Positions 1,641 through 3,797 of a stretch of DNA of 64,000 nucleotides are shown one piece after another. The notes beneath the pieces are model-generated. The model was not told where the DNA came from. It saw only the letters and a list, made by a program, of their open reading frames with translations, and did not search any database. Every line of letters begins with the position of its first letter. Position 1 is the first letter of the stretch. Origin of the DNA: Suillus spraguei (taxonomy: Eukaryota; Basidiomycota; Agaricomycetes; Boletales; Suillaceae). The stretch covers positions 124,001 to 188,000 of the forward strand of contig JABCPU010000047.1 of the NCBI GenBank assembly GCA_016800925.1. Direction: 5' to 3'. Both the position numbers and the translations under genes were made by a program.

Positions 1641-1834
1641 ATTTTCGGTTCTAACCAAGTTAAAGATTGTTGGCAAATGTAACCTAGCGCGTTGTGTATC
1701 CGTCTTTGTCACTTTACACGTGACCCGCAACTTTCGATGACGCAGCATTGAGTCATTGACGGACAAGCTGACTGAGCAAGACCTATAAATTCAGAGTCCA
1801 GACGAGCAAATAACTGCTCGTTTGATTCCTTAAG
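1641..1834. promoter_or_regulatory. Divergent promoter between HAT1 and GLR1
   Basis: This 194 bp gap separates the HAT1 start codon (minus) from the leader exon of glutathione reductase (plus). A good TATA box, TATAAAT, lies at 1784-1790 on the plus strand, about 50 bp before the GTG that opens the mitochondrial leader frame. A transcript starting about 30 bp downstream would begin near 1815. The only plus-strand ATG I see upstream (1737) opens a four-codon frame and would lie upstream of such a start. No comparable TATA is evident for HAT1. Confidence 0.6.
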
Positions 1835-3797
1835 GTGGCCCCTTTATTGCAAAGCGTGCTATCTGTCGCGAAAATCACAACCTCCCGATCCTTAGTGCGC
1901 CCACAGGCATCGCAGCGGCTCTTTCAGGTAATGCCGTGCTCATTGAATGTTCCAGCCTTGATAGGCTATCATAGGTCACCTGAATATCTAATCTTCTCTT
2001 CTTCCCTCACCACAGATATCAAGATTATTCTCGAATAACAGTACTAAAATGGCACCACTCAATAAACTGCAAGAGAAATACGACTACATCTGCATCGGTG
2101 GTGGAAGTGGAGGAGTCGCATCATCGGTATGTCATTTCAACAGGGTGATCGTGACAGATAGTGAGCTCTCTCCAAGCGTCGCGCTGCATCGTATGGCAAG
2201 AAAGTTGCGCTCATTGAATCGTCGCCTCATCTCGGCGGTACTTGCGTGAATGTTGGCTGCGTTCCCAAGAAAGTTTGTCATTCCCCGCTTCTCATTTCTT
2301 ACCCCCTGATTATGGCTGGTTTATAGATTATGTGGCATGCGGCCGATCTTGCAGACCGTCTCCGCCATGCAAGCAAAGGGTACCATTTCGAAAATGTCCC
2401 ACCTCCCCAGTTCAACTGGGCATCCTTTAAACCACAGCGTGATGCGTACATCCGCCGACTGAATGGCATATACGAGAACAACCTTGCGAAAGAAAAGGTG
2501 GATTATTACGGTGGCACAGCCCGTCTAGTCTCGCCCAACGAGGTTCAGATCACGCCGTCTGACGGTGGCGAACCATATGTCATCGCAGGTGACTACATCA
2601 CTGTTGCCACTGGAGGTCGCTCTACCGTCCCAAACGACGATCAGATCCCTGGCGCGAGTCTTGGAATCGATTCGGACGGCTTCTTTGACCTTGAGGATCA
2701 GCCGAAGCGCGTGGCTGTTGTCGGTGCAGGATACATCGCTGTTGAGCTCGCCGGTGTACTCCATACGTTAGGTAGTGAGACACACGTTCTCATCAGGCGC
2801 GAACGCGTTCTCCGCACCTTTGATCCCATCCTTCAAGATACACTTACGCCTTGGATGGAACACACTGGAATTAAGATCCACAAGAATACATCAGTCACCA
2901 AGGTTGAAGGCCAGAAGGGCGGTGAATTGACTGTACACCTCAACGATGGCACACAACTCAAGGTGGATTGTGTGCTGTGGGCTATTGGACGGCATGCAAA
3001 CACTGAGGGTCTAGGTCTCAAAGAGCTGGGGATCCAGCTTGACAAGAAGGGTGATGTAGTTGTCGATGAATTCCAGAAGGCCCTATTTGTAGAGGGCAAG
3101 CCTCAACTGGAGAATATCTTCGCGGTCGGTGATATCCAGGGTAAGGCGCTCTTGACGCCTGTCGCTATTGCGGCAGGTCGGCGACTATCAAACAGGCTGT
3201 TTGGGCCTGAGAAATTCAAGAACGACAAATTGTCGTACGAGGATATCCCAACGGTTGTTTTCTCGTGAGCATACAGCACCTTTTGTTCGAAGTGCTGATT
3301 CATAGCGCATATAGTCACCCCACCATCGGCACAGTAGGGCTAACGGAGCCCGAAGCTCGCCAGAAGTATGGGTCTGCTGTCAAGATCTGTATGTCTGCGT
3401 AATTTCTGCTCAAATGCACAAAAATATTCATTGCAGCGTAGACAAATCCTCGTTCCGCTCGCTTTACTTCTCTCAAATTGAGGAGGAGCATAAGGAGCCT
3501 ACTGTGTACAAGCTCATCGTTGTCGGCGAAGAAGAACGTGTAGTTGGCGTGCATATCATTGGACAAGGAAGCGACGAGGTATTGCAAGGGTTTGCAGTAG
3601 CTGTCAAGATGGGAGGTGAGTACTTTCCATCGTGTCATCTTTCAGTTGATAACTGATGCGTTTGTTCAGCCCGGAAACAGGACTTAGATGACACGGTTGC
3701 CATTCATCCAACATCTGCCGAAGGTGAATAAGCTTCATCATTTTACCTGAACATGACGTACTGATGGACACACGCAGAACTAGTTACACTTCGTTAA
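1835..3797 (+). CDS. GLR1: Glutathione reductase (NADPH), mitochondrial plus cytosolic forms likely
   Basis: This FAD enzyme reduces glutathione disulfide with NADPH. The cytosolic form starts at the ATG at 2049 ([13 protein letters not shown]). It shows the FAD-binding [10 protein letters not shown], the redox-active disulfide [13 protein letters not shown] (about 2235-2275), an NADP-binding [11 protein letters not shown] with flavoprotein features (about 2725-2760), the second FAD motif IFAVGDIQG (about 3117-3145), and the C-terminal HPTSAEE carrying the catalytic His. The stop TAA is at 3795-3797, after an intron ending at 3777. A leader exon (1835-1927) splices through a clean GT-AG intron (1928-2015) to 2016, in frame with the 2049 ATG. 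It encodes an Arg/Ser-rich, acid-free mitochondrial-type leader but has no ATG, only a GTG at 1835 in a favourable context. I infer two isoforms, as known for yeast GLR1. Confidence 0.9.

Follow-up and report, generated by a model that had tools for sequence, protein, structure and literature searches.

The two in-frame AUGs of yeast GLR1, which encodes glutathione reductase (GR), are reportedly the subject of an original paper by Outten and Culotta in 2004. In Saccharomyces cerevisiae these AUGs are described as giving the mitochondrial and cytosolic forms of the enzyme (PMC4851219, PMC11653698). Mitochondrial extensions that begin at near-cognate codons are likewise reported as established in fungi (PMC7049704, PMC5368413, PMC6898956, PMC4263661): dual near-cognate (DualNCC) genes are described in Cryptococcus and other fungi, with ACG used in Cryptococcus for the mitochondrial leader of LeuRS and AUU for that of ArgRS (PMC7049704), and mitochondrial targeting from a non-AUG extension is described as experimentally shown for S. 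cerevisiae HFA1 (AUU) and GPX3 (PMC4263661, PMC5368413). In Ustilago maydis, a non-AUG peroxisomal isoform of PGD is reported from the codons AGG AUU, with a measured use of ~2% (PMC7214817), and in the Agaricomycetes an N-terminal extension of the cpc-1 homologues is predicted to be preceded by a near-cognate codon of conserved position (PMC5487733).

The GR gene of the window (the whole stretch of 64,000 nucleotides of Suillus spraguei DNA that was analysed) has an in-frame leader that contains no AUG. The features of this region are as follows:

1..1640, minus strand: gene similar to HAT1, oriented divergently to GR and cut off by the edge of the window (tblastn, query the HAT1-like region of protein P0076; ORF list)
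1784..1790, plus strand: TATAAAT, a putative TATA box for GR (read from sequence)
1823..1825, plus strand: in-frame TGA, the upstream limit of the leader (sequence)
1835..1927, plus strand: leader exon of 31 codons (sequence and homology)
1835..1837, plus strand: candidate GTG start codon; A (-3), G (+4) (context)
1856..1858, plus strand: second candidate GTG start codon; A (-3), C (+4); the first residue alignable with Chiua (context and alignment)
1928..2015, plus strand: intron 1, 88 nt, GT-AG (CAG/GTAATG ... CTAAT ... CACAG; sequence)
2016..2048, plus strand: second part of the leader, 11 residues, with an R-x-F/[ST] cleavage-like site (sequence and alignment)
2049..2051, plus strand: AUG nearest the 5' end of the spliced mRNA (context AAAATGG), where the cytosolic form begins (sequence)
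2049-2126, 2177-2272, 2327-3264, 3315-3388, 3442-3615, 3670-3723 and 3778-3796, plus strand: exons of the GR core

Gene layout and the spliced leader

The seven exons between 2049 and 3796 encode a GR core of 477 aa. The extended protein scores 606 bits against TIGR01421 over residues 52-519 (curated cut-off 556.15), which with its intact core places it among the glutathione-disulfide reductases, and yeast GR (2hqm) matches the window GR at 526 bits. Clusters P0001-P0003 are 95-96% identical to it, and the top named GR homologue among the matches listed, at 88% identity, is that of Rhizopogon salebrosus (Boletales, Suillineae). A search of the organism's own genome (86.2 Mb in 1256 contigs) gives the window GR as the sole good GR match, the other matching locus (C341) having 30-40% identity. 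The window GR contains approximately seven extra residues (such as FVEGKPQ; ~3073-3111) before its IFAVGD-type motif; such extra residues are also present in P0001-P0003 and R. salebrosus and missing from the six other species of the GR alignment. The deposited Suillus ampliporus GR model (P0121, 403 aa) begins at the internal Met and is apparently mis-spliced in several places.

The divergent neighbour is identified by its homology to the HAT1-like part of P0076 (tblastn E 1e-102, 1538-3, minus strand), and the extent of its open frame points to an ATG at 1640 as its start; two short ORF pieces of the gene gave no match to Pfam. P0076, a deposited model from Dentipellis fragilis, combines a GR part and a HAT1-like part in a single protein and carries PF10394 and PF21184, which we take to be Hat1 domains. 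This suggests that the two genes are adjacent in D. fragilis too and that P0076 is possibly a fused gene model.

Joined across intron 1, segments 1835-1927 and 2016-2048 form 42 open codons in frame with the ATG at 2049. The donor at 1928 has 7 of the 9 bases of CAG/GTAAGT and ties with that at 3616 as the best among the gene's seven introns, which are 50-54 nt long apart from the 88-nt intron 1. On the plus strand, ATGs within 1640-2060 start at 1677, 1737, 1931, 1947 and 2049 only, with none starting at 1738-1930 in any frame; complete absence from 1740-1930 is reached by 2.8% of 10000 dinucleotide shuffles. The leader frame is thus open and free of AUG back to the stop, as a non-AUG long form would require. 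Predicted RNA structure in 1815-1905 is nothing special (z -0.3).

The leader has no D or E, six K/R and 11 S/T in 42 residues, and the R-x-F/[ST] within 2016-2048 is presumably a presequence cleavage-like motif. When the leader was shuffled, 2710 of 20000 versions remained open and 191 of these also lacked acidic residues and had at least six K/R, so composition alone is modest evidence. The coordinates of the leader exon, the GT-AG intron and the in-frame join given in the original prediction are correct, and the scan bears out its in-frame stop at 1823 and its lack of an in-frame ATG before 2049 on the spliced leader; it had also rightly noted the lack of acidic residues, the putative TATA box upstream of 1835 and the A (-3) and G (+4) around GTG 1835.

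Leader homology among mushrooms

A total of 7996 homologues were scored, and the N-termini of the best 120, those listed, were compared by script. An N-terminal leader is annotated in seven of the 120, whereas 112 begin near the internal Met and one was left undetermined. The annotated leader of Chiua virens has a local score of 60 against the window leader (as good in 0/2000 shuffles), that of Marasmius 54 (1/2000), Athelia 41 (5/2000) and Amylostereum 31 (53/2000); the remaining three are not above shuffles (Fibroporia 28, 611/2000; M. indigotica 23, 357/2000; Leucocoprinus 19, 957/2000). Read in its other five frames, the spliced leader does not exceed 26 against the relatives' leaders, and among the 126-nt stretches of unspliced window sequence, 9828 in all, none reaches 60 with Chiua or 54 with Marasmius and five reach 41 with Athelia. 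A common core, RLxQ[IL][ST][RK]xF, is found in the window, Chiua, Athelia, Amylostereum and Marasmius, and the Chiua alignment begins at residue 8 (GTG 1856), extends to the end and crosses intron 1 in frame.

A protein database search with the leader region only (residues 1-48) produced seven candidates and no match at E up to 10, and one with residues 1-68 gave 23 matches from 71 candidates, Chiua (55 bits) being alone among the 23 in having a leader. A Melanogaster protein (P0122, 28 bits) is annotated without a leader, and its first 31 core residues are identical to those of Chiua. Contig searches for relatives' DNA gave seven stretches among viral contigs, none from a relative, and five loci among genome contigs, which are all titled bacteria and were left out of the comparison.

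Homology, rather than composition, is the strong evidence for the leader, and judged by these alignments it is real, conserved, mitochondrial-type and correctly spliced. Presequence make-up and protein-level conservation, both expected of a non-AUG long form, are found together despite the three of seven leaders at shuffle level and a codon usage that resembles non-coding sequence. The alignable annotated leaders are all AUG-started and therefore provide no example of non-AUG use.

Probable translation of the leader and rival readings

We consider leaky scanning the probable arrangement, with a near-cognate start giving a mitochondrial form of GR and AUG 2049 the cytosolic form. In the mechanism that we infer, from the position of the cap to initiation at a non-AUG codon, mitochondrial import and presequence cleavage, one spliced mRNA would yield both forms. 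A minority of scanning ribosomes would initiate at a near-cognate codon of the leader (most likely GTG 1835 or GTG 1856), producing a long form with a mitochondrial presequence of 35-42 residues that would be cleaved near SRLF/SNN; the remaining ribosomes, meeting no AUG in the leader, would start at the strong-context AUG 2049 and make the cytosolic enzyme.

The in-frame near-cognate codons are AAG 1832, GTG 1835, TTG 1847, GTG 1856, ATC 1874, GTG 1895 and ATA 2016. Those at 1835, 1856 and 1874 have A at -3 and, among these three, only 1835 has G at +4; GUG is one of the first-base class (UUG, GUG and CUG) that in yeast is reported to supply approximately half of the start codons of translated uORFs (PMC6898956). 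A cap site at ~1814-1820 would be expected from the TATA box, approximately 20 nt before 1835. GTG 1835 thus has the best context but lies near the expected cap, whereas homology begins at GTG 1856: the first seven leader residues, counted from 1835, have no similarity to the upstream residues of Chiua. A weak likeness between the first residues of Chiua and the window frame upstream of the stops (19/5000 shuffles, in one of five tests) was rejected because 75 of 4124 window stretches score equally and the stretch contains stops. Given non-AUG initiation, we assign about half of the probability to GTG 1835 and a third to GTG 1856, with the other codons taking the rest. The original prediction is sustained for a conserved, spliced, AUG-less leader of mitochondrial type, as the ATG scan and the homology indicate, and GTG 1835 is not established as the initiator, the Chiua homology starting at residue 8. 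It had named this codon the only plausible initiator, although GTG 1856 and ATC 1874 share its A at position -3, and the 13-residue string that it likened to the yeast start begins at GTG 1856.

Codon usage stands against strong translation of the leader, although the bias may be absent from a presequence that is translated only weakly. The result is rough because little sequence was available for training (the GR gene itself and, for the synonymous-site test, also two short stretches of HAT1): the log-odds are -9.8 in the leader frame versus +2.6 in frame 2, 3642 of 4285 open 126-nt stretches equal or exceed the leader's score, and its synonymous-site score is -6.0 compared with -3.1 for the lowest 42-codon piece of GR, with 78% of random synonymous versions of the leader scoring as high. 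This non-coding-like usage makes a recently orphaned leader a serious rival, in which an ancestral AUG-started leader of the kind annotated in Chiua would have lost its AUG recently, leaving a cytosolic form only or a mitochondrion served otherwise. The annotated Chiua leader places its M 26 residues upstream of the common K of KITTS, and the 112 leaderless annotations also fit such a loss, but the 42 codons are open and free of acidic residues, the splice sites and the common R-L and R-x-F core are intact, a single GR-like gene was seen in the genome, and the mitochondrial enzyme is described as required in yeast to maintain mitochondrial redox potential (PMC4851219). On balance we regard the loss as unlikely. 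If instead the leader was never a mitochondrial one and is simply untranslated, or there are two cap sites, with all protein made from AUG 2049, the codon usage would be consistent with this, but the protein-level homology of the leader makes this very improbable.

Two further readings would supply an AUG by splicing. The original prediction had named an upstream ATG exon joined to the leader frame as the finding that would speak against it, and a search (introns of 35-400 nt, GT or GC donors) gives 110 formal joins, from ATGs at 1558 (72), 1479 (21), 1472 (15) and 1737 (2), those with a GT[AG] donor starting at 1479 or 1558. However, 1472, 1479 and 1558 are within HAT1 on the opposite strand and precede the TATA box, the donors of the two joins from 1737 are poorer and not of the GT[AG] type, and the joins shown need introns of at least 115 nt, compared with 50-54 and 88 nt in the GR gene. 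The best-looking join (1558-1596, donor GTAAGA, to the AG at 1834) has a donor at 1597 with 5 of 9 consensus bases and encodes a peptide unlike the upstream residues of Chiua (846/5000 shuffles as good), and we consider an upstream exon improbable. Alternatively, the ATG at 1931 within intron 1 is in the leader frame and 1931-1948 is 18 nt long, such that an alternative donor at 1949 would place 17 residues before Met 2049; this donor has 3 of 9 consensus bases compared with 7 of 9 at 1928, the conservation of residues encoded before 1927 would be left unexplained, and such a start is most unlikely.

Significance and comparison with known systems

If leaky scanning from a near-cognate codon is correct, a central redox enzyme of mushrooms joins those genes in which the choice of start codon sets how much product goes to mitochondria, and automatic annotation of mushroom GR is suggested to miss a mitochondrial form. 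More tentatively, a conserved near-cognate-started presequence may send GR to mitochondria in the Boletales and perhaps in mushrooms widely; we hold this possible but somewhat doubtful. Under this reading, the 112 annotations (of 120 listed) that begin at the internal Met would be explained, and with a GUG start mitochondrial redox supply would be tied to start-codon stringency. A relic leader would instead raise the question of the route by which glutathione is reduced in these mitochondria. Among the matches listed from the open-licence PMC literature, we noticed no paper describing glutathione reductase initiated at a non-AUG codon, and the case would be a new gene rather than a new mechanism, because near-cognate mitochondrial extensions are already established in fungi.

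The gene resembles yeast GLR1 as a single GR gene with a leader before an internal AUG and with mitochondrial and cytosolic forms, the latter two being proposed for the window. It differs in that the yeast long form starts from an AUG, whereas the window leader is split by an intron and, as spliced, has no in-frame ATG before 2049, so that a dual-AUG arrangement would need the improbable upstream ATG exon. The leader was originally said to resemble the start of GLR1, but in the extended protein the match to 2hqm starts no earlier than residue 51, past the leader, and no leader sequence similarity was found between the two. With HFA1 and GPX3 it would share a non-AUG mitochondrial extension and, in the case of GPX3, it shares a role as a thiol redox enzyme; as described, those are other genes with experimentally shown extensions, GPX3 going to the intermembrane space, and the window GR is known from sequence. 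Ustilago PGD, also from a basidiomycete, is described as having a cryptic targeting signal upstream of its AUG that is conserved in relatives, but its target is the peroxisome, its codons are AGG AUU and its use is measured at ~2%. The mitochondrial cases among the DualNCC genes are reported to be tRNA synthetases with ACG or AUU in Cryptococcus, where translation was mapped genome-wide, in contrast to the sequence-based case presented here; they share with it a candidate upstream near-cognate codon, a presequence and a strong downstream AUG, and Cryptococcus is also a basidiomycete.
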